From positions 1-41,972 of the IMG/VR virus record IMGVR_UViG_3300011113_000741: a DNA stretch of 41,972 bases. One strand, written 5' to 3'. Below are positions 934 to 40,432 of the stretch, in pieces. Made by a program: the position numbers and the translations under genes. Source of the stretch: a virus. How positions within the stretch are numbered: position 1 is the stretch's first letter; each line of letters starts with the position of its first letter. The notes under the pieces are model-generated. The model searched no databases. It saw only the letters and a program-made list of their open reading frames with translations, and was not told the origin of the DNA.

Positions 934-956
934 TCATCAAAGCTTAGGAGAAATAA

Positions 957-2849
957 ATGTCAAAGTCTTTTTCACTTAATATGCTCACTGAGGGAATCAG
1001 TGAGCGCAACAACACTGAGGAAGGCCGTCGCCTCATCGAGAAGTGGACCCGCACAGGTCTTCTTCGTGGTCTCGACGGTGTCAAGCGTGACAACATGGCT
1101 CGCCTCATGGAGAACCAGGCTGCACAGCTCCTCCGTGAGGTTAACTCACTCGGAACTGGCGGCGCCGCTGGCACTTCATCCGGAGACATCCGCGGCTTCA
1201 CCAACATCGCGTTCCCGATAGTCCGCAGGGTCTTCGGCGGCCTCGTTGCTAACGAGCTCGTCTCCATCCAGCCAATGAGCCTGCCATCTGGTCTGCTCTT
1301 CTACCTGGATTACACCTACGGAACAGACGTTGGCGGTGACTCTTCCCTCACCACTGGCACCTCAACCGACGGTGCAACCTACAAGGCAGGTCAGTCCATC
1401 TACAACAATCCAACTGGTAAGGGTGTCCGTTCCGGATCACTTGCAACCGGTGGGCAGTACGATCTCGTCGGAACTGGATTCTCCAAGGTTCACACCTCTT
1501 CGGCAGGCGTAACAGTCTCTGATCGTGGTGCCTTCCAGGCTGGAACCTCTCTAACTGCTGGTGCAAAGTGCTTTGCCACCGGAACAGACGGAAGATTCCT
1601 CCAGTTTGACCCACAGGTCACAACTTTGATTGAGTCTGATCCTAACCTCACGGGAACCGGCCAGTTCCAGTTTGTATTCCTCAATTGCTCGACATTCCCA
1701 GCCAACGTTGATTTCCAGCAGGTTAAGGAGATCGCTCTCCACTCTAACACTGTTTCGAATACCGGCCTAGCTGTTCCTGGCGAGACATTCCAGGGAGGAA
1801 ACAACATCCTCAACATCCGTCGTCTCAACCAGCTTGGAACACTTTCTGCTGGAATCTTCACACCAAATCCTCTGCTCGCCTCAGGATCTGCCAACGCTGT
1901 GGTTCTCACAGTCGTCTCAGGCGCCCTTACACCGAGCGGTGCACCGTGGTACTTGACTGCCTCTTACGCAGTTGCCGATACTCTCAATGTTGATGGCTCT
2001 GACGCTTCGACCCTCACGATTCCTTCGTTCGAGTCGAACTTCGGATCAACTCCATCACCAATCATCCCAGAGATCGACATCAAGATCGAGAGCATTCCTG
2101 TTACCGCAACGACCCGTAAGCTCCGCGCTCGCTGGTCGCCGGAACTCGCTCAGGACCTCAACGCCTATCACTCGATGGACGCCGAGGTTGAGCTCACCCA
2201 GATCCTCTCCGAGCAGATCGCTCTCGAGATCGACCGTGAGATCCTGAACGACCTTCTGGTCGAAGCCAAGGGCGCTAACTACTACTGGTCACGCGCTCCG
2301 GGCCGCTTCGTCAACAAGACAAACGGCACTGAGGTTTCTCGCGGTTCTTCTCTCACGCCCGGTCCGGCCTTCACCGGTACGGTCCGCGAGTGGTACGAGA
2401 CCCTCATCGAGACCATTATCGATGTTGCCAACGAGATCCACAGGAAGACCCTCCGCGGTTCGGCTAACTTCATCGTGGTTTCACCCGATGTTGCAACCGT
2501 CCTCGAGGCTTCTGTCATGTACAAGCCCAACTACTCGATCGATGGCCAGGGCCAGGTCGGTGGCTCGATGTCGATCGGCGCCACCCCGATTGGAACCCTG
2601 AGCAACCGCTTCACAGTCTACAAGGACCCCTACTTCCCCAGGAACAAGGTCCTCGTCGGCTACAAGGGCGGTAGCTACCTCGAGACCGGGTACGTCTACG
2701 CTCCGTACGTTCCGCTCATCGTCACCCCGACGATCTTCGCTCCTGAGGACTTCACTCCTCGCAAGGGCGTGATGACCAGGTACGGTAAGAAGATGGTTCG
2801 TGCCGACTTCTACGGAACAGTCACCTGCCTCGATATGAACATCATCTGA
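957..2849 (+). CDS. gp23: Major capsid protein, T4 gp23-like
   Basis: Product of 630 aa that forms the capsid shell. The N-terminal half carries the gp23-family block GFTNIAFPIVRRVFGGLVAN followed by LVSIQPMSLPSGLLFYLDYTYG, and the C-terminal half carries RARWSPELAQDLNAYHSMDA and the EIDREIL segment typical of T4-like capsid proteins. T4 gp23 is 521 aa; the extra length lies mostly between about residues 125 and 370, a Gly/Thr/Ser-rich region corresponding to the surface insertion domain. A good Shine-Dalgarno (AGGAG) precedes the ATG. The gene follows the scaffold and ends at a strong terminator. The 3' half (from about 2040) is richer in C-ending codons than most neighbours, consistent with very high expression. 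Confidence 0.95.
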   Translation: MSKSFSLNMLTEGISERNNTEEGRRLIEKWTRTGLLRGLDGVKRDNMARLMENQAAQLLREVNSLGTGGAAGTSSGDIRGFTNIAFPIVRRVFGGLVANELVSIQPMSLPSGLLFYLDYTYGTDVGGDSSLTTGTSTDGATYKAGQSIYNNPTGKGVRSGSLATGGQYDLVGTGFSKVHTSSAGVTVSDRGAFQAGTSLTAGAKCFATGTDGRFLQFDPQVTTLIESDPNLTGTGQFQFVFLNCSTFPANVDFQQVKEIALHSNTVSNTGLAVPGETFQGGNNILNIRRLNQLGTLSAGIFTPNPLLASGSANAVVLTVVSGALTPSGAPWYLTASYAVADTLNVDGSDASTLTIPSFESNFGSTPSPIIPEIDIKIESIPVTATTRKLRARWSPELAQDLNAYHSMDAEVELTQILSEQIALEIDREILNDLLVEAKGANYYWSRAPGRFVNKTNGTEVSRGSSLTPGPAFTGTVREWYETLIETIIDVANEIHRKTLRGSANFIVVSPDVATVLEASVMYKPNYSIDGQGQVGGSMSIGATPIGTLSNRFTVYKDPYFPRNKVLVGYKGGSYLETGYVYAPYVPLIVTPTIFAPEDFTPRKGVMTRYGKKMVRADFYGTVTCLDMNII

Positions 2850-2873
2850 TGTTCTAGCCGGTAGGGCACAAGG

Positions 2874-2905
2874 CGGCCACCCTTCGGGGTGGCCGTTCTT
2901 GTTTT
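2874..2905 (+). terminator. Intrinsic terminator after the capsid gene
   Basis: A perfect 9-bp stem (2874-2882 with 2887-2895) closes a TTCG tetraloop and is followed by TTCTTGTTTT. GC-rich stem, extra-stable UUCG loop and T-rich tail make this a textbook rho-independent terminator 25 bases after the capsid stop codon. Confidence 0.9.
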
Positions 2906-3044
2906 AATGTCTGAATATTTTTTTAAATCATCTGAGAATGTTTTCTAAAATTACACTAGGCGTAATACATAGCATTAAGCCCAATCCAAGTGAACACCTG
3001 ACACCGACGGGGGATTGGAAGCATTCGGAGCATAGGAGGTTCAC
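2906..3044 (+). promoter_or_regulatory. Leader of the 148-aa structural gene with hairpin and strong RBS
   Basis: This 139-base gap follows a terminator, so the next gene needs its own promoter. AT-rich sequence at 2906-2970 could hold it, but I see no convincing -35/-10 pair. Downstream is a 7-bp inverted repeat (2981-2987 with 3012-3018) and then a full AGGAGGT Shine-Dalgarno at 3034-3040, five bases from the ATG at 3045. The hairpin may protect the mRNA 5' end; that is inference. Confidence 0.45.
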
Positions 3045-6704: not shown

Positions 6705-9700
6705 ATGGCAGAAGTAACCTACCGGTCGCCGGGGTTTTTTGAAACTGAAATAGACCTGAGCGGTCCTACGCCAGGTGTCATAGGCACACCTGCCGGTCTG
6801 ATTGGTACATCACCCATGGGACCAGCATTTGTCCCAACAACAGTCACATCGTTCAGCGAATTTGTCTCTCTATTTGGAGATGCTGGAATTAATAGATCGC
6901 CAGCTTATTACGCAGCTCAAGAATATTTCAAGAATGGTAATGCTTTGACATTCGTGAGAGTCTTGGGTGCAGGTGGAAATGCATCAACAGGCGACATACT
7001 CAACACCCAGAACAAGGGGTTTACTGTTGGATCAGGATTTGTGATTTCCGGAACTGTCGCTCATTCAAATGATCTTAGGGGAAAGGGTTTTGTTCAGTTC
7101 ATCGTTGGAAATCATACACTAGCATCTGGAGATATTGATGCTTCTTACCCGATCTTTACTCTAAATAAAACGTTCACAACTGCAGGATCTGCAAATCTTG
7201 TGAGAGGCGTACTGCTCTTGGCGTCCGGCACGCGTGCACAGATCCTCTCAGACAACCAGGTGTATACAAATGCAAATGCTGCTGATGACATAGCAACTCC
7301 AGGATCAACAGGTAATTTTAAGCTTGTAATCTCAAGTTCATCACCCGGTTTTGGTACAACCGAAGGTTTTACCGGAATAAGAATTTTCACTGCTTCTCTT
7401 GATCCCGATAGCAGTAATTACATTTCAAAGGTTCTTAACACGTCTCCTGCACTCTTCCAGGAGAATGAGCATCTTCTATACCTCCACTATCCCGTTGATT
7501 CAACGGTTGCAACTCTGTCAACAACGGCAGGTGCTGTTGGACTGGCTAGCGGATCTGCTGGAACATCATCGACATCTGGGGATACCTCAGTACCTTTCTC
7601 CCGCCTCTTTGGACGTTTTGATGCAAGGTACCAGCCAGCTAGAACAACTTCTTTCATAAGCCAGCCGTTTGTTGACAAGGAGTATGATCTATTCCACTTT
7701 GAAACAATTGGAATAGGAATAGACACCAGCACAAGATTTAAGATCTCTATATCGAATCTCAAGAGGTCAGACGATCCTGCAAATCCATACGGAACCTTTA
7801 CTGTCCTAGTCAGAGACTTCTATGACTCAGACTATGATATGAAGATTCTAGAGCAATTTCCGCTCTGTGATCTAAATCCTGCTAGTGATAGATACGTTGC
7901 AAAAGTTATCGGAGATAAAAAGATATTCTTTAATTTTGATGCAGTTAACGAGAGCGAGAGAAGATTCTCATCCTCGGGCAAGTTCCCAAATGCTTCTAAG
8001 TATGTTAGAGTCGTTATGAACTCGCTTGTTGACTCAGGAAATGTTCCGTCTGCTGCTCTGCCATTTGGATTTAGAGGGCTGCCAGTCCTTAAGACAAACG
8101 ATACTTTCACAGACGTAGGAGAGAAAAGAGAATCGAGGCGACTTGGAATGGTTGCCGCTGCAACAACGCTTACAGCGTCTGTCCTTCCTCCTGTCCCCAT
8201 GAGATTCAAGGTGACAACTGGGCAGACTGAAGCTGCTCCAACATTCAAGGGCCAGAGCGGATATCAAGAAAGAACCGACGCTAGGTTGTACTGGGGCATA
8301 ATGCCAGAGCGTGTAACAGATGATCTTGACCCAAATAGCGGCACCAAGAGAAATGAATACATTGACAACCTTGTGAAGTTCTCCGGAATCCAGAAGCTTG
8401 ATGCCTTTGTAACAGGATCGGGTGCAGATCTATTCGGATCGAACAAGTTCACGCTTGCAAATGTTGCATTCTACAACGGATCCATGGCAGATCTGACAGG
8501 AACTGTTGATCAGCATATGATTAATGCCTACTACGGCAGAAGTCTTGTTCCAGAGGCACCCGACTACACGATTACTTTCACATCAGAGAATCCGCGTATA
8601 ACGTTTGCTACACTTGCTTCGACAGGTTCAACCTATCAGTTTAACAGATTTAGTGAATTTGCGAAGTTTACCAATCTCATGTACGGCGGGTGGGATGGTA
8701 CTAACATCCTTGACGTTGATATGGCAAACTTGAACGATAGGGCATCCTCTAGCGAATCCGGTGGAAAGGCTATTGCTTCTCCAAATATCGGACTAAGTGT
8801 TAGCGCGACTTCGAACGTATTTGGATCAGGAGTAACAAATTCAGTTGTGAACTCATATAGAGGCGCAATTAAGATTATTACTGATACAGTTTCTTCCAAC
8901 GTCAACACAGTAACAATACCGGGTATTAGAGATTCTAACATCACAAATTACGCACTAAGAAGTGTTGAGAATTTCTCCAGGGCATTCTATCTCATGGACA
9001 TTCCAACATACGACGATAACGGAGATAGAATCTTTGATGCAATAAACCAGCCAGACGTTGATCAGACTGTGCAGCAGTTTGCCGGAAGGGGAATCGATAA
9101 CAGATACGCTGCTACATACTTCCCAGACGTTAATCTTACAGATGCATCATCTGGCAGAAGAGTTAGAGTTCCGGCTTCGGTTGCTGCACTTGGCGCACTT
9201 GCTCAAAATGATAAACTTTCATTTCCGTGGTACGCACCTGCAGGATTTAACAGAGCATCTTTGGCAGATGTCACAGGACTTGCAACTCGATTGACAAGTG
9301 CAGACAGAGACAATCTGTATGATGCAAGGATTAACCCTATCACGTCTTTCCCGGGTGCAGGGTTTGTTATATTTGGTCAAAAGACGCTTCAAATTGCTCG
9401 ATCTGCACTGGACCGAGTCAATGTCGTAAGAATGCTAATCGAGCTTGCAAGGCGAGTCACATCGGTTGGATTGCTTTATGTCTTTGAACAGAACAATGCA
9501 TCGACTAGAGCTAGATTCGTAAATCAGCTAACAACTGAGCTAACCCTGATCCAGAGCCAGAGCGGCATAGATACATTTAGGGTTGTTATGGATGACACAA
9601 ACAACACTCAGACTGACGTTGAACAGAACAGGCTCAATGGTAGAATTTTGATTGTTCCGACAAGGGCAGTTGAATACATTGCTATTGATTTCATCATAAC

Positions 9701-9725
9701 AAATGCTGGCGTAGAGTTCGTTTGA
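6705..9725 (+). CDS. gp18: Tail sheath protein, paralog 1 (gp18-like)
   Basis: Product of 1006 aa, the contractile sheath subunit. The N-terminus YRSPGFFETEIDLSG with GTPAGLIGTSPMGPAFVP is the standard sheath opening, and the C-terminal block from INPITSFPGAGFVIFGQKTL through RVNVVRMLIELARRV to the final strands is the conserved sheath domain that makes inter-subunit contacts. T4 gp18 is 659 aa, so about 350 residues of additional domain sit between, likely on the outer surface. A GGAGAG ribosome site precedes the ATG. The next gene is a divergent paralog. Confidence 0.93.
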   Translation: MAEVTYRSPGFFETEIDLSGPTPGVIGTPAGLIGTSPMGPAFVPTTVTSFSEFVSLFGDAGINRSPAYYAAQEYFKNGNALTFVRVLGAGGNASTGDILNTQNKGFTVGSGFVISGTVAHSNDLRGKGFVQFIVGNHTLASGDIDASYPIFTLNKTFTTAGSANLVRGVLLLASGTRAQILSDNQVYTNANAADDIATPGSTGNFKLVISSSSPGFGTTEGFTGIRIFTASLDPDSSNYISKVLNTSPALFQENEHLLYLHYPVDSTVATLSTTAGAVGLASGSAGTSSTSGDTSVPFSRLFGRFDARYQPARTTSFISQPFVDKEYDLFHFETIGIGIDTSTRFKISISNLKRSDDPANPYGTFTVLVRDFYDSDYDMKILEQFPLCDLNPASDRYVAKVIGDKKIFFNFDAVNESERRFSSSGKFPNASKYVRVVMNSLVDSGNVPSAALPFGFRGLPVLKTNDTFTDVGEKRESRRLGMVAAATTLTASVLPPVPMRFKVTTGQTEAAPTFKGQSGYQERTDARLYWGIMPERVTDDLDPNSGTKRNEYIDNLVKFSGIQKLDAFVTGSGADLFGSNKFTLANVAFYNGSMADLTGTVDQHMINAYYGRSLVPEAPDYTITFTSENPRITFATLASTGSTYQFNRFSEFAKFTNLMYGGWDGTNILDVDMANLNDRASSSESGGKAIASPNIGLSVSATSNVFGSGVTNSVVNSYRGAIKIITDTVSSNVNTVTIPGIRDSNITNYALRSVENFSRAFYLMDIPTYDDNGDRIFDAINQPDVDQTVQQFAGRGIDNRYAATYFPDVNLTDASSGRRVRVPASVAALGALAQNDKLSFPWYAPAGFNRASLADVTGLATRLTSADRDNLYDARINPITSFPGAGFVIFGQKTLQIARSALDRVNVVRMLIELARRVTSVGLLYVFEQNNASTRARFVNQLTTELTLIQSQSGIDTFRVVMDDTNNTQTDVEQNRLNGRILIVPTRAVEYIAIDFIITNAGVEFV

Positions 9726-9749: not shown

Positions 9750-12635
9750 ATGGCCGGTAGCGCAAAAGTAACGACTAGAATAATTGATCAATCGCAGCCA
9801 GTCGCTGCAGTTCCATCTGGGACTCCTGCTGGAATAATAGGGACTGCCGAGACTGGTCCGGCCTTTGTTCCCGTGACTTTTACAACCTTTAGCTCTTGGA
9901 AGAGACTGTTTGGTGAAAGCGGAGAAAGATTTGGGCCCCTAGCTGTTAGCCAGTGGTTGACAAATGCGTCGCAGGCAACATATTTAAGAGTCCTCGGCAT
10001 TGGAGATGGAAAGAAGCGCAGTGCATCGACAGGGCAAGTTACCAATGCAGGCTTTGTGGTCGGGTCGCAGCAGGTTCACAATAGCGGAATTGTTTCCTCT
10101 AACCCGTATGCAAACCTGGGTGGAACGCTAGGAAGAACGCACTTTCTCGGTGCATTCATGTCAGAGTCTGCCGGATCAACAGTTTTCAGTGAAGCTGGAT
10201 ATCAAGTAAGCACTGGATCCATGCCAATAATAAGGGGAGTCATTATGACTCCTTCCGGAGTTTCTCTAACTCTATCAGGAAATTACAACACTAGCAATGC
10301 GCCTTCAACGTTCTCTTCTTCTCCTGGCGGAGGAATAACTGGATCAATCTCTGTGTCGGGATCGATGTTTGTTATGCTTCTCAATGGTCACGTCGATACG
10401 CCAGCTTACAGAAATGTTATTACAGCTTCATTTGAGATTGGGGATAATCACATATCCAAAAAGCTCAACACAGATCCAATGCTGCTTGAGCAAGCTGGAC
10501 ACTGTCTGTATGCTTACTACGACATTCCTGCATCTTTGGCAGTCTTGACTGGGACAGGTGTCTTTACTAACCCATTCACCGTTGCTAGCACAGAGCTTCA
10601 CGATGTTGTGTTCATCACAACTAGCTCCATCGCCAGGGACACGTCAACATCTACTATTCCTAATTTTGAAAATTTTAGAGAAAGATATGCAACTCCTCAC
10701 ACTCCGAGCATCATCTCTCAGGATTTCGGAGGTACCAAGTACCCACTATTCAAGGTCCACACGCTTTCGGATGGTGAAAACGCCAACACAAAGTATAGAA
10801 TACTGATTGAAAACATTCAGCCTTCTGCAGACCCTGCATATCTTTTTGGAAAATTTGATCTATCTGTCCATGATTACGAAACAAAGAATCAGATTACAAG
10901 ATTCAACGGCTTGTCTCTTGATCCTACATCTACTTCTTACATTGCAAGAGTAATCGGAGATCAGCATGTCTTCTTTGATTTCGATAGAACAGCGAGCTCA
11001 CAAAAGATTGCAATCACTGGAGATTACCCAGTTCTAAACAACTTCATCCGAGTTGAGATGTCGGATGATATAATTCAGGGAAATGTTCCACCTAATGCAC
11101 TTCCATTTGGTCACAGAGGATATGGCTATCTAAATACGTCCGGAAGCATTCTTGCGAGCCTGTCAGACCTAAACAGCATGAATCCGAATCGATTGAATGA
11201 CATTGTTCGTGCAAAAATTGCTCCCATCCCATACAGAAAGAACATATCTGTAGGAGGAAATCCGAGGGCGTTTCTGGCATGGGGAGTTCAGTCAGAGCTA
11301 CAGAGCCTAGCTAATTACAATTACACTAGCGTTTTTAATTCATCAGTCGCTAGTTACTCAAAATTCTTCCCGTCTTTTGCACCCACTGATGCGAAGTTCT
11401 TTGTCGAGGATTCATCAGAAGCTGACTCTTTCTCTAACGGATTGTTCACTATTGAGAACATAAGGGTTGTGACCGGGTCAAACACGTATGCAGATCCTGC
11501 TCAATGGGGTTCTGCAACATACATCAGAGAAGGAAACATTCCCGTTACTCCGTCTTCAAAGACCCGCGGGCTCACAATAGGCGATCTTGCAAATACAACG
11601 TCTCAGACTTCAAAGTACGTCTCGTTTGAAGTCATAACGCAGGGAGGATTTGACGGAGTCAACATATTTGATGCCCAGAAGTCGAATTTAACAAATCTTG
11701 CTGTCAAGAGAGAGATAGATGACGCCGGCAACCAGGGAGGCGCTACAAGCGGCCCAACGATCGTAGCCTATAAAAAGGCAGTTGACATTATGGGAAGTAA
11801 GTCAGACGCTGACATCCAGGTTCTTGCCATACCGGGTATTAGGCATTCATCGGTTACTAACTACGCAATATCTGCTGTTGAGAACAGATTTGATGCTATG
11901 TACATAATGGATATTGAAGAAAGAGACGCTTTCAACACAGTCATAACAGGATCTGGTATAGAACCTGACGTCTCTTACACGGTTGACGCATTTACCGGTA
12001 GAAATCTCAACTCCTCATTCGCTGCAGCATATTTCCCAGACGTTACCATCACAGATCCCGATACAGGTGATCTTGTGGCAGTTCCTCCCACTGTTGTGGC
12101 ACTTGGCGCTTTGTCACAGAATGATAAAATTGGATCTTACTGGAATGCTCCTGCAGGATTCAATCGAGGAGGACTTCCAAGCGTTGAGTCTTCTCCAATT
12201 ATACTCACACAAGACGATCTCGACATCCTCTACGATGCAGCCATCAATCCGATTACAAGCTTTGCAGGAACAGGATTCGTCGTCTGGGGGCAGAAGACCC
12301 TCCTTAAGGCATCTTCTTCACTTGATAGAATAAATGTGAGAAGACTCCTAATTTTCCTGCGTAGACAGGTGAGACAGGTTGCAAACAGCCTCTTGTTCGA
12401 GCCTAACACGCAGGCAACACTTGACAAATTTAATGCACTTGTCAACCCGATTCTACAGCGCATTCAGTCGGGCGGCGGTGTGGAAAGATACAAGGTCATT
12501 ATTGACACAACAACGACTACACAGGCAGACATCGAGAATAACACAATCAGGGGCAAGATTTTCTTGCAGCCAACTAGAACTGCTGAGTTCATTTCAATTG
12601 ACTTTGAGGTCAGAGGACGCAGTGTTTCTGTATGA
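9750..12635 (+). CDS. Tail sheath protein, paralog 2 (gp18-like)
   Basis: Product of 961 aa, clearly homologous to the preceding protein: SGTPAGIIGTAETGPAFVPV near the N-terminus, VLAIPGIRHSSVTNYAISAVENR in the middle (paralog 1 has VTIPGIRDSNITNYALRSVENF) and NPITSFAGTGFVVWGQKTLL plus RINVRRLLIFLRRQVRQ near the C-terminus. Both ends that form the conserved sheath core are intact, so this is not a remnant. It has its own AGGAG ribosome site 8 bases from the ATG. Whether both are built into one sheath, or one serves another position or stage, cannot be told from sequence. Confidence 0.92.
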   Translation: MAGSAKVTTRIIDQSQPVAAVPSGTPAGIIGTAETGPAFVPVTFTTFSSWKRLFGESGERFGPLAVSQWLTNASQATYLRVLGIGDGKKRSASTGQVTNAGFVVGSQQVHNSGIVSSNPYANLGGTLGRTHFLGAFMSESAGSTVFSEAGYQVSTGSMPIIRGVIMTPSGVSLTLSGNYNTSNAPSTFSSSPGGGITGSISVSGSMFVMLLNGHVDTPAYRNVITASFEIGDNHISKKLNTDPMLLEQAGHCLYAYYDIPASLAVLTGTGVFTNPFTVASTELHDVVFITTSSIARDTSTSTIPNFENFRERYATPHTPSIISQDFGGTKYPLFKVHTLSDGENANTKYRILIENIQPSADPAYLFGKFDLSVHDYETKNQITRFNGLSLDPTSTSYIARVIGDQHVFFDFDRTASSQKIAITGDYPVLNNFIRVEMSDDIIQGNVPPNALPFGHRGYGYLNTSGSILASLSDLNSMNPNRLNDIVRAKIAPIPYRKNISVGGNPRAFLAWGVQSELQSLANYNYTSVFNSSVASYSKFFPSFAPTDAKFFVEDSSEADSFSNGLFTIENIRVVTGSNTYADPAQWGSATYIREGNIPVTPSSKTRGLTIGDLANTTSQTSKYVSFEVITQGGFDGVNIFDAQKSNLTNLAVKREIDDAGNQGGATSGPTIVAYKKAVDIMGSKSDADIQVLAIPGIRHSSVTNYAISAVENRFDAMYIMDIEERDAFNTVITGSGIEPDVSYTVDAFTGRNLNSSFAAAYFPDVTITDPDTGDLVAVPPTVVALGALSQNDKIGSYWNAPAGFNRGGLPSVESSPIILTQDDLDILYDAAINPITSFAGTGFVVWGQKTLLKASSSLDRINVRRLLIFLRRQVRQVANSLLFEPNTQATLDKFNALVNPILQRIQSGGGVERYKVIIDTTTTTQADIENNTIRGKIFLQPTRTAEFISIDFEVRGRSVSV

Positions 12636-26544: not shown

Positions 26545-27501
26545 ATGGCAATTAACTTCGACGCTATTCGCAAGCGTCTCGACAACCTGTCTGGAAACAC
26601 TAAGAAGTCCTCTACCTCCTGGAAGCCGAAGGAAGGAGAGGAGTACACAGTTCGTCTTCTTGCATTTCCCACCCTTCACGAAGTAAAGAAGGGCGACACG
26701 ACATCTTCTATCTGCAAGAAGTACGATCTTAGTCTCGCAAAGCTCCAGGCCATGAACCCAGACGTTGATTTTGATTCGACTCTCAAGGAGGGCGTCAAGC
26801 TGACAATTCGTGATGATGGACAGCCTTTCAAGGAGCTTTGGTTCTATTACAACATCGGGAACAACCCGGGTCTTCTCACTCCGAATCAGTTTGGAAAGCC
26901 TGATCCTATCCAGGAGCTGATCACAAAGCTTCGTACTGAGGGTACCAAAGAGTCCTACGAGCTCGCAAAGAAGCTCTATCCGAAAATGCGTTGCTATGCA
27001 GCAGTCGTAGTTCGTGGTGAGGAGGAAAAGGGAGTCCAGATTTGGGGATTCGGTAAGCAGGTCTACCAGGCACTCCTTGGGATTATGCTTGATGAGGACT
27101 ACGGCGACATCACCGATCCTGAGGGTGGTCGTGACGTGAAGGTCAAGTGCTACAAGCCGCAGGGTAAGAAGTTCGCTGAGACCGAGGTTATGCCCCGCGG
27201 TAAGGCTAGTGCGCTCTCTCCGAATTCTGCTACCGCAAAGCAGTGGCTCGACAACATTCCAGACGTCAACAAGATGTTTGAGCTCAAGTCCTACGAGGAG
27301 CTTTCGAAGATCGTGAATGACTGGGTTGAAGGTGGAATGCCGACTGAGTCCGATGGTACTTCTCGCGGTGGAGATAACAAGGTTGCTGCTGTTGCTGATG
27401 AGGATGATGATTCTCCTCCGCCATCCAAGCCTGCTGCAAATACACCCAAGAAGACGTTCAAGTCTCTTGATGATGCTTTCAACGATCTAATCGACTCTTA
27501 G
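26545..27501 (+). CDS. Single-stranded DNA-binding protein, gp32-like, with inserted LysM domain
   Basis: Product of 318 aa that should coat ssDNA during replication and recombination. N-terminal MAINFDAIRKRLDNLSGNTK and EEYTVRLLAFP, then PFKELWFYYNIGNNPGLL, the central KMRCYAAVVVRGEEEKGVQI and YGDITDPEGGRDVKVKCY, and the acidic C-terminal tail (DEDDDSPPP ... DDAFNDLIDS) are typical of gp32-type proteins of large T4-like phages; the acidic tail recruits partners in T4. Residues 46-88, between LLAFP and DGQPFKEL, are a near-canonical LysM domain: EVKKGDTTSSICKKYDLS, LQAMNPD and LKEGVKLTI. The CxxC-type zinc site of T4 gp32 is not evident. The gene has a structured leader and ends before a GC-rich hairpin. 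Confidence 0.88.
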   Translation: MAINFDAIRKRLDNLSGNTKKSSTSWKPKEGEEYTVRLLAFPTLHEVKKGDTTSSICKKYDLSLAKLQAMNPDVDFDSTLKEGVKLTIRDDGQPFKELWFYYNIGNNPGLLTPNQFGKPDPIQELITKLRTEGTKESYELAKKLYPKMRCYAAVVVRGEEEKGVQIWGFGKQVYQALLGIMLDEDYGDITDPEGGRDVKVKCYKPQGKKFAETEVMPRGKASALSPNSATAKQWLDNIPDVNKMFELKSYEELSKIVNDWVEGGMPTESDGTSRGGDNKVAAVADEDDDSPPPSKPAANTPKKTFKSLDDAFNDLIDS

Positions 27502-28725: not shown

Positions 28726-29678
28726 AAGGTGAGGCATCGATCTTGATGGTCGATGCTCTCAACCTCTTCACCCGTCACTTTGTCGCACACCCAGCAATGG
28801 GTGTGAATGGCAATCATCTGGGCGGTGTTGTTGGGTTTATGGGAGAGCTTCGATCTCTTTGTACCCGGTTTAGGCCCAAGAGAGTCTATGTTGTCTGGGA
28901 AAGTGGGGGCTCTGCCAAGAGAAGGTCTCTGTATTCGGATTACAAAATGCATAGACGCCCAGAGAAGCTAAACAGATATTACGAAGAAGACATCCCACAG
29001 ACAGTTTCAGATAGGAACAGCCAGATCGTAGCTATAGTGAAGCTTCTAAATTACCTGCCAATCGTACAGATGTACGGACAAGATTGTGAGGCTGATGATG
29101 TCATAGCCTACATCTGCAGGTACATGCATCCTGAGTGTTTGCATATCATCTTATCAGCTGATAAAGACTACTATCAGTTGATTCGAGACAACTCAATCAT
29201 TTACTCGCCAACCTGGAAAAAGCTTGTCGACACAGATGAGGTGTTGAGCAAGTTTTCCGTCCACCCAAATAACTTTGCGCTTGCAAAAGCTGTGTGTGGA
29301 GATGACTCAGATAACATACCCGGCGTGCAAGGTGTCGGATTTAAGACGCTTGCTAAGAGATTTCCCGAGCTGTCAAATTCGGAAGATGTTATGCTTGAAG
29401 ATTTCATCGGACTCGCAGAGTCTAGAAAGACAGGCAAGGTGAAGATCTTTGACTCCATCTGCGAATCGACTGATCTGATTCGTAGAAATTGGAAACTTGT
29501 TTATCTTGACTCATCTTCAATACCTCCGCAACAGATCGAAAAGATTAGGTTTACGAATGAAAAATGGACCCCGAAGCGTGATAAGATAGGATTCATGCGG
29601 GAAGCACAATCAATTGGAATTAGAAATTTTGATATTGACAGCATGTTCTACTCAGTAAATCACATCGGTGCCGAATGA
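28722..29678 (+). CDS. 5'-3' exonuclease / RNase H, FEN family
   Basis: Product of 318 aa. FEN-type nuclease features in order: LMVDALNLFTRHF (first metal Asp), VYVVWESGGSAKRRSLYSDYK with the basic arch residues, CEADDVIAYIC (acidic cluster), ILSADKDYYQLI (second acidic site) and CGDDSDNIPGVQGVGFKTLA (third site and helix-two-turn-helix/H3TH DNA-binding element). It removes RNA primers and 5' flaps, as does T4 RNase H (305 aa). It is translationally coupled to the recombinase (ATGA overlap) and to the helicase that follows. Confidence 0.92.
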   Translation: MKGEASILMVDALNLFTRHFVAHPAMGVNGNHLGGVVGFMGELRSLCTRFRPKRVYVVWESGGSAKRRSLYSDYKMHRRPEKLNRYYEEDIPQTVSDRNSQIVAIVKLLNYLPIVQMYGQDCEADDVIAYICRYMHPECLHIILSADKDYYQLIRDNSIIYSPTWKKLVDTDEVLSKFSVHPNNFALAKAVCGDDSDNIPGVQGVGFKTLAKRFPELSNSEDVMLEDFIGLAESRKTGKVKIFDSICESTDLIRRNWKLVYLDSSSIPPQQIEKIRFTNEKWTPKRDKIGFMREAQSIGIRNFDIDSMFYSVNHIGAE

Positions 29679-31042
29679 GCGAAGCGTTTTTTAGCCAATA
29701 TGGTAAACAGTTCCAGGAAAAGATCTTTCAAGCATTCCTGACCGATCGAGGTTGGGCAATGCAGATGATTGAGATCATGACTCCCGAGTACTTTGATCTC
29801 AAGTATCTGCAGTATCTCTGTAAGTCATATTTCTCATATCACCAGAAGTATAAAGATTTTCCAACGCTTCCTCTTCTTGTGACCATAATCAAGGATGATT
29901 TGCGCGAGGGGAAGGACACTATTCTTCGCGATCAAATCATTGACTTCTTGCAACGCATCAGGACTAATCCAAACATTGGAGATCTTGATTACGTCAAAGA
30001 CAAATCACTGGACTTCTGCAAGAAGCAAGCGATGAAAGAGGCGCTTGAGAAGGCTGTCGAGATGATTGCGACGGACAATCTTGATTCAGTTGTTGGACTA
30101 ATGAAGGACGCGCTGGCTGCCGGAACTCCCGCATCTGTTGGTCACGACTTTTTTGAGGATATTGAGGCACGCTTTGTAAGGACTCGTCGGCAGGTGTGCC
30201 CGACAGGATTACCGCAGATTGATGCTCCTGATATCTTGAATGGTGGCCTTGGTCGCGGCGAGCTTGGCGTCGTAATCGCGCCAACTGGTGTTGGAAAATC
30301 TCACTTCCTTGTGCAGATGGGTGCAGAAGCACTTCGAGTCGGAAAGAATGTTGTTCACTATACGTTCGAGCTTACTGAATCAGCAGTTGGCTTGAGATAT
30401 GACTCCAATCTTTGCAACATTCCAAGCAACGAGGTAATCGATCGTAAGGAAGAGGTGCTGGACTTCTATAAGAATGCGCAACTTGGGAGGCTAATCATCA
30501 AGGAGTATCCAACGGGTACACCATCTGTCCAGACACTGCGTAATCACATCGAAAAGCTATTGCTAAAGGGTTTTGTTCCGAGCGTTGTCATTATTGACTA
30601 CGCCGACATTATGAAGTCTTCCAGAAAATTTGACTCACTACGTCATGAATTGAAGCTAGTCTATGAAGAGCTTCGAAACATGGCAATGGAGATGAGCATT
30701 CCAATCTGGACTGCGTCTCAGGCAAACCGGGACGCATCAAACTCAGATATTGTTGGACTTGAAAACATGTCTGAGGCTTATGGAAAGGCAATGGTTGCCG
30801 ACGTTGTTTTGTCAATTTCAAGAAAGCCAAATGAAAAATCAACTGGTGCTGGTCGAATCTTTGTTGCCAAGAATCGAGCCGGCCGAGACGGCATGTTGTT
30901 TCCCATGCAGATAGATACTTCCATGTCAAAGTTCGCACTGCTCAACACGGACGAGATGTCACTCAACGACGTGGTTAAGGCAGATGGAACATCAATGAAA
31001 ACACTTCTCAAAGAGAAGTGGAAAGAGATTAACGGTAAATAG
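29675..31042 (+). CDS. Replicative DNA helicase, DnaB / T4 gp41 type
   Basis: Product of 455 aa. An N-terminal helical domain (residues 1-150) leads into a RecA-type motor: GGLGRGELGVVIAPTGVGKS (Walker A), YTFELTESAVGLRYDS, VVIIDYADIMKS (Walker B), WTASQANRD (sensor Gln) and VADVVLSISRKPNEK. This is the hexameric ring helicase that unwinds the fork 5' to 3'. The length matches T4 gp41 (475 aa). Its primase and loader partners are not in the window. ATGA overlap with the nuclease gene. Confidence 0.93.
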   Translation: MSEAFFSQYGKQFQEKIFQAFLTDRGWAMQMIEIMTPEYFDLKYLQYLCKSYFSYHQKYKDFPTLPLLVTIIKDDLREGKDTILRDQIIDFLQRIRTNPNIGDLDYVKDKSLDFCKKQAMKEALEKAVEMIATDNLDSVVGLMKDALAAGTPASVGHDFFEDIEARFVRTRRQVCPTGLPQIDAPDILNGGLGRGELGVVIAPTGVGKSHFLVQMGAEALRVGKNVVHYTFELTESAVGLRYDSNLCNIPSNEVIDRKEEVLDFYKNAQLGRLIIKEYPTGTPSVQTLRNHIEKLLLKGFVPSVVIIDYADIMKSSRKFDSLRHELKLVYEELRNMAMEMSIPIWTASQANRDASNSDIVGLENMSEAYGKAMVADVVLSISRKPNEKSTGAGRIFVAKNRAGRDGMLFPMQIDTSMSKFALLNTDEMSLNDVVKADGTSMKTLLKEKWKEINGK

Positions 31043-31073: not shown

Positions 31074-33569
31074 ATGTCTGAGTCTGTCAAAGCTAGAGCC
31101 CTTCGTGAGACATCGGAGTATTTTGGAGGAGATGAACTAGCACCTGACGTGTTTATGAAGTATGCTCTTCGCAACGGTGATGATCTACTGGAGACAAATC
31201 CAGACCAGATGCATCGTCGACTTGCAAAGGAATTTGCGCGTATTGAGTCAAAGTATCCAAATCCGCTAGATGAGCAGACAATCTACGAATATCTCGAGGA
31301 CTTCAAATATATTGTGCCGCAGGGCTCTCCCATGTCGGGCATCGGCAATCCTCACCAGCTACAGTCTCTCTCGAATTGCTTTGTCGTGGATCAGCCCCAT
31401 GACAGTTATTCTGGTATTCTCTTCACGGACCAGGAACAGGTCCAGATTATGAAGCGTCGCGGGGGTGTTGGGTTTGACATCTCGACCATACGTCCGAAGG
31501 GGCAGCCTACGTCCAATGCTGCTCGGACAACCGATGGTATTGGTGTTTTCATGGAGAGATTCTCCAATTCCACGCGCGAGGTGGCGCAGGGTGGTCGTCG
31601 CGGCGCCCTCATGCTCACCATCGACTGTCGCCATCCCGAGATTGAGACCTTCATCGACATCAAGCGCGACCTGAAGAAGGTAACGGGTGCTAACATCTCG
31701 ATCCGGTTCACCGATGAGTTCATGCAGGCTGTAGAGAACAATGTGGGCTTCTGTCTACGCTGGCCAGTCGAGGCTCATCCAGAAGACGCGGAGATCGTGA
31801 AGATGGTCGATGCAAAACAGATCTGGGACAAGTTTGTCGATGCGGCTTGGGCTTCGGCGGAGCCTGGAGCTCTTTTCTGGGACACTGTTGTCAATCACGG
31901 CATTGTCGACTGTTATCGTGACGTTGGCTATAAGACGATCTCAACCAACCCGTGCGGTGAGATTCCACTTAGCCCCTATGACTCGTGTCGCCTGATGGTT
32001 GTCAACCTCACTTCATTCGTGAAGGAGCCATTCACGGGAAATGCCCAGTTCGACTTTGAGGAGTTTGGAAAGGCAGTCTACGTGGCACAGCGTCTCATGG
32101 ACGATCTTGTAGATCTCGAAGTCGAGTGTGTTGATCGAGTACTTGCCAAGATCGATAGAGATCCCCAGCCAGATCATGTGAAGAAGATTGAACGAGACCT
32201 CTGGACCAAGATTCGTGCTGCTGGACTTAACGGTCGGAGGACTGGTCTCGGTGTAACTGGTCTCGGCGATGCCCTTGCTGCTCTTGACCTCAAATATGGA
32301 TCTGATGGTTCTATCCAAATGACAGAGTTTATCTACCGTCACTTGGCAAGGTGGGCGCATTATTCATCTCTTGTAATGGCAAAAGAGCGAGGATCCTTCC
32401 CGGTATGGGACTACGAGAAGGAGAAAGATCACAAGTATCTAAACAGCGTCATGGATACCATCGTGCCGCTCGATAAAGATGCCCGTGACATGTGGAAGAC
32501 CACCGGACGACGCAACATCGCACTCACCACCACCGCCCCGGTCGGATCAGTCTCAATTCTTACACAGACAACTTCTGGCATCGAGCCAGCCTTCCTCCTG
32601 TCATACAAGCGCCGCCGCAAGATCACACAGGGAGACATCACATCTAGGGTCGACTATGTGGATCCGATGGGTGACAAATGGCAGGAGTACACGGTCTACC
32701 ACCACTGGTTCAAGAAGTGGATGGAAATCACCGGAAAGTCTGATCCGCAGGAGAGCCCATACTGGGGAGGGACTGCCAACGACATTGACTGGACGAAGTC
32801 GGTCGAAATTCAGGCAGCAGCTCAAAAGTGGATTGACCACTCGATCTCAAAGACTTGCAATCTTCCAAACTCTGCGACTCGTGAGACCGTCAACGACGTC
32901 TATATGAAAGCCTGGAAGTCCGGTTGCAAGGGATTCACAGTCTACCGAGACGGATGCAGGACTGGCGTTCTTGTTCAAAATGATGAGCCCAAGAAAGAAA
33001 AGAAGGCTGATGATGGCAGAAGCATCCCAAAGCGTCCAAAGTCTCTGCCTTGTGACATTCACCGTGCAAATGTTCGAAATGGAGAAAATTCAGAATCCTG
33101 GCTTGTTCTTGTGGGTCTCAATGAAGGAAAGCCGTATGAGGTCTTCTGTGGTATTCCAGAGAACATTGAGATTCCAAAGAAATACAAGTCCGGAATTCTC
33201 ATCAAGAATGGAAAGCGTGATGGTGTAACGACATACAACCTACAGGTTCCTGTTGGTGACGATGAAAACCTTGTATTCAAGGACATTATCAATCTATTTG
33301 ATAATCCTACGCAAGGCGCGTTTTCAAGAACAGTTTCACTTGCCCTTCGCCACGAGGTGCCTCTTCACTACGTAGTTGAGCAGCTTCAGAAAGACAAGAG
33401 TAGTGACATGTTCTCTTTTGCGAGGGTTATTGCTCGAGTCTTAAAGGGCTATATTAAGGATGGGACTGCTTCTTCTGAGAAAGGGTGTCCGCAGTGCGGG
33501 AACACAGAGCTTGTCTACCAGGAAGGATGCCTTTCTTGCAAGAATTGCTCTTACTCTAAGTGCGGCTAG
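31074..33569 (+). CDS. nrdJ: Class II (adenosylcobalamin-dependent) ribonucleotide reductase
   Basis: Product of 831 aa that reduces ribonucleotides to deoxyribonucleotides for DNA synthesis. Visible residues: SLSNCFV with the first redox Cys (C102), NPCGEIPL with the thiyl-radical Cys C294 and Glu296, the second redox Cys in DSCRLMVVNL (C305), and a C-terminal Cys-rich tail (CPQCGN ... CLSCKNCSYSKCG) that recycles the active site and is typical of NrdJ. No NrdB or NrdD-type glycyl-radical signature is present. It needs coenzyme B12 from the host. There is no intein or intron interruption. The ribosome site AAGGAG fixes the ATG at 31074. It opens the nucleotide-metabolism block. Confidence 0.93.
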   Translation: MSESVKARALRETSEYFGGDELAPDVFMKYALRNGDDLLETNPDQMHRRLAKEFARIESKYPNPLDEQTIYEYLEDFKYIVPQGSPMSGIGNPHQLQSLSNCFVVDQPHDSYSGILFTDQEQVQIMKRRGGVGFDISTIRPKGQPTSNAARTTDGIGVFMERFSNSTREVAQGGRRGALMLTIDCRHPEIETFIDIKRDLKKVTGANISIRFTDEFMQAVENNVGFCLRWPVEAHPEDAEIVKMVDAKQIWDKFVDAAWASAEPGALFWDTVVNHGIVDCYRDVGYKTISTNPCGEIPLSPYDSCRLMVVNLTSFVKEPFTGNAQFDFEEFGKAVYVAQRLMDDLVDLEVECVDRVLAKIDRDPQPDHVKKIERDLWTKIRAAGLNGRRTGLGVTGLGDALAALDLKYGSDGSIQMTEFIYRHLARWAHYSSLVMAKERGSFPVWDYEKEKDHKYLNSVMDTIVPLDKDARDMWKTTGRRNIALTTTAPVGSVSILTQTTSGIEPAFLLSYKRRRKITQGDITSRVDYVDPMGDKWQEYTVYHHWFKKWMEITGKSDPQESPYWGGTANDIDWTKSVEIQAAAQKWIDHSISKTCNLPNSATRETVNDVYMKAWKSGCKGFTVYRDGCRTGVLVQNDEPKKEKKADDGRSIPKRPKSLPCDIHRANVRNGENSESWLVLVGLNEGKPYEVFCGIPENIEIPKKYKSGILIKNGKRDGVTTYNLQVPVGDDENLVFKDIINLFDNPTQGAFSRTVSLALRHEVPLHYVVEQLQKDKSSDMFSFARVIARVLKGYIKDGTASSEKGCPQCGNTELVYQEGCLSCKNCSYSKCG

Positions 33570-33604: not shown

Positions 33605-34207
33605 ATGAACATCATCACGTGTGTATCGCCTCTAGTCAAGGAAGTAGAACTTCGATCTAGTCCTGTAATCATCAGGGTTAATAAGTTTGAAGAAGACTCC
33701 GCAAAAGAATTTGCGCAGCAGATGTCCCTTGCACAATCAACAGGTCAGCCTGTTATTCCTATCATCATTGATTCGTATGGTGGACAGGTCTACTCGCTCA
33801 TGTCAATGATTGGCAATATCAAGTCTTCCCGGACTCCTGTTGCTACTATTGTCGAGGGAAAGGCCATGAGCTGTGGTGCAATTCTATTTTCTTTCGGACA
33901 TCAAGGATACAGATTCATGGATCCAGATTCTACGATTATGATCCATGACGTCTCATCGGGCGCAATCGGCAAGATTGAAGACATCAAGGCAGACTCCAAA
34001 GAGGCAGAACGTCTCAATCAGAAAGTCTATCGTATGATGGCTGCAAATTGCGGCAAGGAACCTGAGTACTTCCTTAACATCATTCACGAGAAGAGCCATG
34101 CTGATTGGTATCTTGATGCAAATGAAGCGCTACGTCACGGTCTCGCAAATCACACTAGGCTTCCCGATATGAAGATCAGCGTGGATGTAAAATACAAGTT
34201 TGAATAG
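33605..34207 (+). CDS. ClpP-like serine protease
   Basis: Product of 200 aa with a ClpP/crotonase-type fold. DSYGGQVYSLMSMIGNI matches the oxyanion-hole strand and helix, GKAMSCGAILFSFG carries the nucleophile Ser89, STIMIHDVS carries His114, and HADWYLDANEALRHGLAN places Asp167 as the third triad residue. All three catalytic residues appear conserved. Host ClpP works with ClpX or ClpA; this one could exchange into host rings, redirect proteolysis or process phage proteins. It is far from the capsid genes, which argues against the main prohead protease. No Shine-Dalgarno is seen in front of the ATG. Confidence 0.87.
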   Translation: MNIITCVSPLVKEVELRSSPVIIRVNKFEEDSAKEFAQQMSLAQSTGQPVIPIIIDSYGGQVYSLMSMIGNIKSSRTPVATIVEGKAMSCGAILFSFGHQGYRFMDPDSTIMIHDVSSGAIGKIEDIKADSKEAERLNQKVYRMMAANCGKEPEYFLNIIHEKSHADWYLDANEALRHGLANHTRLPDMKISVDVKYKFE

Positions 34208-34214
34208 GTGAAAA

Positions 34215-35228
34215 ATGGTAAATGTAATTGCTGAGTATATTTGGGTTGATGGCTCGACGCCCACGTCGAAACTAAGAAGCAAGACCAAAATCTTTCAGTT
34301 TGAGAAAGAGCGTCTTGCAATTTCTGATATTCCGACATGGACATTTGACGGATCTTCGACAGGGCAGGCACCAGGAGACAAGAGCGATTGTGTTCTTGTG
34401 CCTGTTGCAATGTGCAAAGATCCAATTCGATCAGGAGCAAATGCAATTCTTGTCCTGTGTGAGGTGTATAACGCAGATGGGACGCCTCACACGACAAATA
34501 CAAGAAATCCGCTTGTCAAGCTTATGCAGAAGAAGTCGTATAAAGATCCTCTTTGCGGGATCGAACAAGAGTATACACTTTTTCGAGGCGGGACCCCGCT
34601 AGGCTGGCCAACTGGGGGCTATCCTCCTCAACAAGGACCTTACTATTGCGGCGTAGGAGCAGATGAGGTTTGTGGAAGAGATCTCGTAGAAGAGCACATG
34701 CGTGCGTGTCTTGATGCGGGAATTCTTATCTGCGGAGTTAACGCTGAAGTGATGCCGGGTCAGTGGGAGTTCCAAATTGGAACCTCTGATCCAGTAACAG
34801 TATCAGATCATCTTTGGTTTGCACGGTGGTTGCTCTATAGGATCGGTGAGAAGCACGGAATAAATGCAAAGCTTGATCCGAAGCCTGTTAGGGAGCTTAA
34901 TGGAGCAGGAGCACATACGAACTGGTCAACTAATGCGACAAGAGACCCAGAGTCTGGAATGGTTGAGATCGACAGGATCCTCCACGTACTTAGAATGAGA
35001 CACGATGATCACATCGTTAGATACGGTCACGGCATTGAGCAGAGACTAACCGGGCAACACGAAACTTGTTCTTATAAGGAATTTAGATGCGGAGTCTCAG
35101 ATCGGGGAGCATCAGTTAGAATTCCACTCCATGTGTCTCAGGCAGGGTGCGGATACTTTGAAGATCGCAGACCGTGTGCAAATGTTGATCCATACACTGT
35201 AACTAGACTGCTGCTAGAGGCATCTTGA
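34215..35228 (+). CDS. Glutamine synthetase, type II (eukaryotic-like GSII)
   Basis: Product of 337 aa that would make glutamine from glutamate, ammonia and ATP. It is the short GSII form (about 330-370 aa), not the 470-aa bacterial GlnA. N-terminal grasp domain: AEYIWVDGSTPTSKLRSKTK and WTFDGSSTGQAPGDKSD. Catalytic domain: CGIEQEYTLFRGGTPLGWPT with Glu117 and Glu119, QQGPYYCGVGAD, GVNAEVMPGQWEFQIGT with Glu178 and Glu185, LNGAGAHTNWST with His234, RLTGQHET and YFEDRRPCANVDPY. Every motif is present, so it looks active. It starts 7 bases after the clpP-like gene and overlaps the following membrane gene. Its presence in phage DNA is unusual. Confidence 0.93.
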   Translation: MVNVIAEYIWVDGSTPTSKLRSKTKIFQFEKERLAISDIPTWTFDGSSTGQAPGDKSDCVLVPVAMCKDPIRSGANAILVLCEVYNADGTPHTTNTRNPLVKLMQKKSYKDPLCGIEQEYTLFRGGTPLGWPTGGYPPQQGPYYCGVGADEVCGRDLVEEHMRACLDAGILICGVNAEVMPGQWEFQIGTSDPVTVSDHLWFARWLLYRIGEKHGINAKLDPKPVRELNGAGAHTNWSTNATRDPESGMVEIDRILHVLRMRHDDHIVRYGHGIEQRLTGQHETCSYKEFRCGVSDRGASVRIPLHVSQAGCGYFEDRRPCANVDPYTVTRLLLEAS

Positions 35229-35449
35229 TGAGCACAGACAGCACTGAGCTACTCATCAAGACCGTGATCTGGAGAGTATTTTCAATGCTGTTTGGAATGT
35301 GGGTGACCTACCTTTTCACCGGCGATATCATCAGATCATCAATGATGGTATTGGTGTCTGGTTCGTCACTCACTTTCTTGCAATGGGTATTTGAGATTAT
35401 CTGGGACAGATACTGTAGAGAGAGGATTAGAAATGCCATTTCAGAATAA
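35228..35449 (+). CDS. Small membrane protein, DUF2061-like
   Basis: Product of 73 aa from ATG 35228, which overlaps the last base of the glutamine synthetase stop (TGATG). It has two hydrophobic segments, about residues 14-32 (VFSMLFGMWVTYLFTG) and 36-55, and ends with an aromatic/charged FEIIWDRYCRERIRN. The pattern IKTVIWRVF ... TGDI ... IWDRY resembles the DUF2061 family of predicted membrane proteins of unknown function. Its 3' end overlaps the thyX start. Being coupled to glutamine synthetase suggests, without proof, a link to transport or membrane location. Confidence 0.65.
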   Translation: MSTDSTELLIKTVIWRVFSMLFGMWVTYLFTGDIIRSSMMVLVSGSSLTFLQWVFEIIWDRYCRERIRNAISE

Positions 35450-36065
35450 TACTGTTGAGCTGGTCGGCTGGTACGGCGGCGACGATGTTCACGCTTTGTC
35501 CGCATGGACAAGTACAAGTAGAGATCTGAACGCTGAAAAGCACAACAGAATTCCAGCTTTATTAAAGATGCTTGCAGAAAATGGTCATGAGACTCCCTTT
35601 GAAAAGAGCTCTCTACACTTTCTGGTTACTGTTGATTGCGCTACACACATTCAGCTTCTCAAGCATCGGATTGGAGTCTCAATCAACGCTGAGTCTGCTC
35701 GCTATAAAGAGCTAAAGGACGATAAGTACTACCTTCCAAAAGACTGGCCTGTCGAAGAACAGAGTCGGTATATCGCCTTCATGGAAGACGCCCTAATGCG
35801 ATACCATGAGACGCTGGATCGACTCGTTGCATCAGGAATGAGTCGAAAACGTGCTAAGGAGTCAGCCAGATTCTACTTGCCATATGGCAATCAGATTACG
35901 ATGGACATTATGTTCAACTGGCGTAGCTTCAATCACTTTCTCGGGCTCCGGATGAAGCAAGATGCACAGCGTGAGATTTGCTGGGTCGCTGAGGAGATGC
36001 TTAAGCAGGTAAGTGAGATACCCGGAAATCCATTCAGAGATACAATTCAAGCATTTGGATATTGA
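35433..36065 (+). CDS. thyX: Flavin-dependent thymidylate synthase
   Basis: Product of 210 aa from ATG 35433, preceded by GAGAGGATTAGAA; a reading frame 14 codons longer lies inside the membrane gene and is not needed. ThyX makes dTMP from dUMP with FAD and methylenetetrahydrofolate. The signature RHRxxSxNxxSxRY appears as KHRIGVSINAESARY (residues 77-91), with the first Arg replaced by Lys. Later, SARFYLPYGNQITMDIMFNW and FLGLRMKQDAQREI match the second substrate-binding region, including RLxxxAQ-like residues. The length is normal for phage ThyX. Confidence 0.88.
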   Translation: MPFQNNTVELVGWYGGDDVHALSAWTSTSRDLNAEKHNRIPALLKMLAENGHETPFEKSSLHFLVTVDCATHIQLLKHRIGVSINAESARYKELKDDKYYLPKDWPVEEQSRYIAFMEDALMRYHETLDRLVASGMSRKRAKESARFYLPYGNQITMDIMFNWRSFNHFLGLRMKQDAQREICWVAEEMLKQVSEIPGNPFRDTIQAFGY

Positions 36066-39481: not shown

Positions 39482-40432
39482 ATGCCTCAAAATCTAGATC
39501 TTCAACCCATTACTCTGCCAATGGCGATTCGCTTCGGCGAAGACCCGTCAACCGATTTTGTCAACAGCCTTGATGCAATCAAGCTTGAGCTAGTTGACAG
39601 CCCGGATCCCAAGACTATTCGACAGGCAGTCTACTGCTTTGTAAAGTCCACCTGGGCAGACCAGCATGTACCATATGGTCAGGCGTCTGATGCAGATCTT
39701 TCTAAGACCATGGAGGATGTCTTTGCAGGTCGTGCTCTTCCGGCTGCGATGGAGCTCATCGGTCTCACGTTCCTCGTAGGCGGCATCGACACGCAGACTG
39801 TAACTCACCTTATCCGTCATCGTGCTGGATCTTTCGCAGCACAGTGCACCGGTGATCGCTGGCTCTCTCATGAGCGTAGCCTTGTTCCAGGCTCTATCCA
39901 GAACAGTCCTGAGTTCTACGAGCGCTGGCAGGACCATGTCAAGGAGGCGAAGCAGCTTTACGTTGATATGGTCGATTCTAAGAAGATTAGCCTGATGGAT
40001 GCTCGACACATCCTTCCGAAGTGCCTTGAGACATTCTACTACATGCGCATGAACATCCGTGATGCTTTCATGTTCATCAAGCAGCGCCAGGACAAGCAGA
40101 TCCAGCCTGAGGAGGACAATATCCTTGCTGCGCTTATGGCTCGTGAGATCTTGCGTGTCTTCCCTGAGGCACATGTTGCGATCAACCTTCGCGAGCCTGC
40201 CTGGCACTACATCAAGACGTTCCGCAATGGCACGGGCACAAATCTCTATTGGCCCGACGAGGACAGCGAGAAGCATCTCACCTATCATCCGAACGACACG
40301 ATCTATCAGGCTACACGTGACGATATGAATGGAACTGAAGGTGGCGAGCCCCGCTTCCGGACGCTTTGGCGTGAGATTCTTGGGGAGATTGACGAGATTG
40401 TGAGTAATTACAAGGCGCGTCGAGATTTTTAA
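39482..40432 (+). CDS. Divergent ThyX-like flavin-dependent enzyme (second copy)
   Basis: Product of 316 aa with AGGAG before its ATG. It belongs with ThyX: VTHLIRHRAGSFAAQCTGDRW keeps RHRxxS, but the second part (NxxSxRY) becomes AAQCTGDRW, two residues longer with Ser replaced by Cys/Thr. ARHILPKCLETFYYMRMNIR and FIKQRQDKQIQPEEDNILAA match the C-terminal ThyX region. It is about 100 residues longer than the other ThyX of this genome. It may be a true thymidylate synthase or act on a modified or different pyrimidine nucleotide. Codon usage is GC-rich in the third position, pointing to strong expression. Confidence 0.75.
   Translation: MPQNLDLQPITLPMAIRFGEDPSTDFVNSLDAIKLELVDSPDPKTIRQAVYCFVKSTWADQHVPYGQASDADLSKTMEDVFAGRALPAAMELIGLTFLVGGIDTQTVTHLIRHRAGSFAAQCTGDRWLSHERSLVPGSIQNSPEFYERWQDHVKEAKQLYVDMVDSKKISLMDARHILPKCLETFYYMRMNIRDAFMFIKQRQDKQIQPEEDNILAALMAREILRVFPEAHVAINLREPAWHYIKTFRNGTGTNLYWPDEDSEKHLTYHPNDTIYQATRDDMNGTEGGEPRFRTLWREILGEIDEIVSNYKARRDF

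Follow-up and report, generated by a model that had tools for sequence, protein, structure and literature searches.

The 41,972-base virus record analysed here (hereafter the window, meaning this whole stretch of DNA) carries the gene of a type II (GlnII-class) glutamine synthetase (GS) amid phage genes for replication and nucleotide metabolism. It is likely that this gene is an auxiliary metabolic gene (AMG) for a catalytically competent GlnII of bacterial descent, which would make glutamine for phage nucleotide synthesis. GS is an accessory, swappable metabolic gene and not a core gene in its phage group. Related phages possess or lack the entire gene at a single junction, and this scarless pattern of presence and absence is the new part of the present analysis.

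A type II glutamine synthetase in a phage gene block

The left part of the window encodes a T4-like major head protein, two tail sheath proteins and further tail proteins. The right part encodes DNA polymerase, UvsX, an exonuclease, DnaB, a class II ribonucleotide reductase (RNR), a ClpP-like protease, GS, a DUF2061 protein, ThyX, and DNA-repair and nucleotide enzymes; dUTPase/MazG-type genes also lie near GS. The window is a contig of a T4-like myovirus with NrdJ and ThyX. Among the best matches, the closest relatives of its DnaB and head protein belong to Microcystis phage Mel-JY01, Flavobacterium phage immuto and uncultured huge phages, all at less than 50% identity. The GS gene occupies a block with the order DnaB–class II RNR–ClpP–GS–DUF2061–ThyX, and its neighbours RNR and ThyX bear out the preliminary description, which had placed it within a phage nucleotide-metabolism block. 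The features of the block are as follows.

29675..31042, + strand: DnaB-like replicative helicase, first gene of the conserved block
31074..33569, + strand: NrdJ-type (class II, B12-dependent) ribonucleotide reductase
33605..34207, + strand: ClpP-like serine protease whose S, H and D positions are present (triad read off the translation by eye); borders the GS presence/absence site on the left
34206..34210, + strand: Shine–Dalgarno-like AGGTG of the GS gene, read from the sequence, 4 nt before the ATG and overlapping the ClpP stop codon
34215..35228, + strand: type II (GlnII-class) GS gene, 337 aa, identified by structure-profile match, active-site residues and fold model
35228..35449, + strand: DUF2061, a small membrane protein whose start codon overlaps the GS stop; borders the GS site on the right
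35433..36065, + strand: ThyX, FAD-dependent thymidylate synthase, with a start overlapping the DUF2061 end

Several other features of the window were recorded. Two ThyX-family genes (35433–36065 and 39482–40432) occur in this one phage, and the signature of the second is altered (RHRAGSFAAQC, with a cysteine near the position of the serine expected in the family); it may be a specialised paralogue. The two tail sheath proteins (6705–9725 and 9750–12635) are encoded in adjacent tandem and are very large (1006 and 961 aa). The open reading frame at 26545–27501 combines a single-strand DNA-binding protein match (residues 115–257) with a LysM-like match (residues 43–86). The G+C content of positions 1–3000 is 0.52–0.56, compared with about 0.41–0.45 in the structural region that follows.

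The GS reading frame opens with ATG and closes with TGA, and its coordinates agree with those of the preliminary description. The best solved relative of its product is Streptomyces coelicolor GlnII (4bax; E 1.1e-122, residues 6–335, 59% identity), followed by plant, yeast and animal GSII structures. The alignment to 4bax runs end to end, as for members of the GSII class (about 330–370 aa). Correspondingly, an AlphaFold model built with 30 sequences (mean pLDDT 89.4, pTM 0.91) retrieved 4bax as the top Foldseek match (TM 0.93), ahead of human and maize GSII. The NCBIfam model NF041605 (gln_syn_GlnII) matches over its full length at 467.6 bits, compared with about 42–51 bits for the GSI, GSIII and gamma-glutamylputrescine synthetase models. 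As this score falls slightly short of the curated equivalog cut-off of 500 bits, GS is assigned to the GSII class only and not to the NF041605 equivalog. The identity of the open reading frame as a GSII is far above chance.

The residues of the metal, ATP, glutamate and ammonium sites are all intact. Fourteen catalytic positions (Asp45, Glu117, Glu119, Glu178, Glu185, Asn229, His234, Arg277, Glu283, Arg297, Arg302, Glu316, Arg318 and Arg319) are the same in all of 83 phage and 80 bacterial homologues except one truncated phage copy, and Ser47 and Tyr144 on the ammonium side are likewise intact and invariant. Residues, length and structure match thus uphold the earlier reading of the gene as a full-length, phage-encoded GSII with all active-site motifs. 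Between the window and its relatives L001–L003, synonymous sites are saturated (pS 0.76–0.83, pN 0.11–0.16). Less diverged pairs give a dN/dS of about 0.06 (dN 0.044 and dS 0.754 for L008–L012; dN 0.059 and dS 1.06 for L008–L019). GS is under strong purifying selection and is kept for its protein.

The GS stop codon TGA (35226–35228) overlaps the ATG of DUF2061 (35228); inspection of the sequences showed a corresponding overlap, with ATG, GTG or TTG as the possible DUF2061 start, in those loci of the window group that were examined. The overlap on which the preliminary description based a tie between GS and a small membrane protein therefore exists, but it is unspecific: DUF2061 keeps its place in loci lacking GS. 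Furthermore, DUF2061 was found near none of 80 bacterial GSII genes, and a functional GS–DUF2061 pair is ruled out on these two grounds. The overlap reflects dense packing and is no evidence for a GS partner, although it perhaps permits translational coupling. The case cautions against inferring that genes work together solely because they overlap in a tightly packed phage operon.

Descent and distribution of the phage enzyme

In trees built from phage, bacterial and eukaryotic GSII sequences only, the window GS belongs to a phage clade (support 100/99) nested with GlnII of Myxococcota, Pseudomonadota and other bacteria, and eukaryotic sequences stand apart. Its identity to the best bacterial sequence is 63%, compared with 52% to eukaryotic sequences. 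A eukaryotic origin is disfavoured by identity and tree; the AU test of a clade joining the window and eukaryotic sequences gave p = 0.06, short of formal rejection. The label 'eukaryotic-type' thus holds for the GSII fold class and not for descent, which appears from identity and tree to be bacterial.

Compared with bacterial GlnII (S. coelicolor 4bax and enzymes of Myxococcota, Actinomycetota and Chloroflexota), the window GS shares class, length, catalytic residues and fold at 59–63% identity; it differs in being phage-borne, in lying in a replication/nucleotide operon, in forming its own phage clade and in a score a little short of the NCBIfam equivalog threshold. Eukaryotic GSII (human, maize, Drosophila) is of the same class and has the same fold (TM about 0.90) and catalytic residues, but is only 52% identical and branches separately. 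GSII was gained several times by phages: a single origin for all phage GSII is rejected (AU p = 1e-46), as is a union of the window clade with a large clade of 25 phage rows (AU p = 2e-6), which groups with Chloroflexota.

A full-length GSII in a phage nucleotide-metabolism block had been considered rare, and rarity holds for catalogued genomes: only 4 of 50,697 phage records carry it, all of them uncultured huge phages whose enzymes are 44–47% identical to the window GS, and other weak matches in that set are about 25–30% identical. In IMG/VR, by contrast, relatives occur on at least 109 contigs. The order RNR–ClpP–GS–DUF2061–ThyX is kept in most relatives with 69–85% GS identity, and the full block beginning with DnaB is present in a dozen related contigs. 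Of 50 GS-carrying records, 11 encode a T4-like head protein, among them the records of L002, L008 and L019. Phage neighbours in related contigs, the check proposed against misassembly, were looked for; the block recurs in many contigs and the phage placement stands. Since this syntenic block is found in independent phage contigs, assembly contamination or a host fragment is ruled out. GS is a metabolic gene of cellular type situated between phage genes on phage contigs.

GS genes of phages are already known. They are reported as AMGs in 9 of 25 moraphages (PMC12619734) and in other jumbo phages (PMC13037316), in passages that give neither the class of the enzyme nor its genomic context nor a pattern of presence and absence. 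As described there, those genes resemble the present one in lying on genomes of environmental tailed phages and in being read as AMGs of nitrogen metabolism; the phage of the window is a member of a T4-like myovirus group that encodes NrdJ and ThyX. A search of open-access papers, which misses many subscription journals, found none that names a type II glutamine synthetase in phages. The window GS adds to the known genes a well-characterised case with an unusually clear presence/absence pattern.

Presence and absence at the ClpP/DUF2061 junction

The GS-minus state was sought in relatives retrieved by their RNR and ClpP. The loci found through RNR comprise 11 with GS and 26 that encode RNR and ThyX but no GS, with ClpP identified in 24 of these 26. 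In most GS-minus loci hardly any spacer separates the ClpP stop from the DUF2061 start; in L174, for example, ...ctggactaa is followed by GTGAAGCCTGCAAAG. In GS-plus loci, the entire GS gene lies between ClpP and DUF2061. A search of 28 GS-minus contigs, many of them fragments and the largest spanning 123–176 kb, detected no GlnII- or GSI-like match. The absence of GS from this position in 26 relatives marks it as a non-core gene. In L168 (5874–6816), GS is split into two overlapping frames by a break that represents either decay or a sequencing error.

Mapping onto the RNR tree gives 10 switches between presence and absence of GS, at least 9 of them forced by well-supported branches. Because the GS genes at the ClpP/DUF2061 site form one clade, loss of GS together with exchange by flank recombination is the simplest reading of this patchy pattern. 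The window RNR is nearest to that of L013 (whose RNR is partial) and the window GS is nearest to that of L001, which fits mixing by recombination.

ClpP also neighbours GS outside the window clade. A ClpP-like gene directly precedes GS in six loci of the 25-row clade (L031, L040, L063, L066, L079 and L080). In L264 (6611–7624) and L295 (6675–7676), GSII directly follows a ClpP that is 66–67% identical to that of the window; these GSII proteins are only 42–46% identical to the window GS and branch elsewhere. Such loci suggest repeated arrival of GSII at one spot after ClpP. It may be speculated that this is a preferred site for GS, reached by at least two, perhaps three, separate GSII lineages of which one toggles scarlessly, and that ClpP and GS act as a nitrogen-recycling pair, although this is unlikely. 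If true, ClpP proteolysis and ammonium assimilation by GS would jointly supply nitrogen for nucleotide synthesis.

Proposed role and significance

It is proposed that GS is probably co-translated with RNR, ClpP, DUF2061 and ThyX, and that in the infected cell it would convert glutamate, ammonium and ATP into glutamine. This glutamine would provide amide nitrogen for new purines and CTP, beside the phage RNR and ThyX. Class I or II glutamine amidotransferases are encoded on only 6 of 39 GS-carrying records, and the glutamine users would therefore mostly be host enzymes. Amino sugars made by GlmS could be a second glutamine sink in some relatives: GlmS-like proteins, which use glutamine, are encoded on the contig of relative L008 (605 aa) and in three records of another GSII clade. 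GlmS-like (glutamine-fructose-6-phosphate aminotransferase) genes on GS-carrying phage contigs were located at L165 863–2680 (contig of L008) and L166 988–2808 (contig of L071).

GS would serve the phage when host glutamine synthesis is limiting or is shut off by adenylylation. The adenylylation loop is a feature of GSI, and the 337-aa GS has no room for it. As a GSII, the phage enzyme may thus stay active while host GlnA is off; both escape from adenylylation and relief of a nitrogen limit are plausible. Repeated toggling of GS at one site is expected for a conditionally useful gene. Pelagiphage infection raises host glnA, gltBD and amt transcripts (PMC12753301), and phage infection can therefore draw on this pathway. 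Against the proposed role count the dispensability of GS, which 26 near relatives lack, the scarcity of amidotransferase genes and the failure to find a PII gene in the 39 GS-carrying records, and the NF041605 score below the cut-off.

The main value of GS might instead lie in signalling, with the raised glutamine damping the host nitrogen-starvation response (PII/NtrC) to the advantage of phage growth rather than feeding nucleotide synthesis. Glutamine is the signal for PII uridylylation in many proteobacteria, and an enzyme outside host adenylylation control would suit such a function. The location of GS among RNR, ThyX and dUTPase/MazG-type genes nevertheless fits nucleotide supply, no PII gene was found in 39 GS-carrying records, and neither a glnA riboswitch nor any other Rfam element reached the gathering score in the window, all of which renders a signalling role improbable. 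It is also quite improbable that the protein is a GS-like ligase joining glutamate to another amine, such as a polyamine or a cell-wall or DNA-modification substrate, in place of ammonium. GS-fold enzymes with other amine substrates exist, the gamma-glutamylputrescine synthetase model NF045547 gives a weak match (E 3.7e-11), and the window showed no recognisable gene dedicated to using glutamine; such ligases are, however, of the GSI class and score far below GlnII (42 versus 468 bits), and the ammonium-site residues Asp45, Ser47, Tyr144 and Glu283 are intact and invariant. Least probable is that GS is a cell gene acquired by recombination that drifts in and out as passive cargo without benefit, for although the 10 changes on the RNR tree and the frame break in L168 would agree with drift, the invariant catalytic residues of 83 phage copies, the strong purifying selection and the fact that phages acquired this enzyme class independently several times speak against it.

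The preferred reading remains that of a glutamine-producing AMG serving phage nucleotide synthesis. Metagenomic studies usually list viral glnA or GS genes while saying nothing about their class, their context or whether they are used. In the present case the class is established as GSII, selection on the protein is demonstrated, and naturally matched genomes that have GS or lack it at one junction are at hand. These matched GS-plus and GS-minus genomes make the benefit of such a gene to the phage directly testable.
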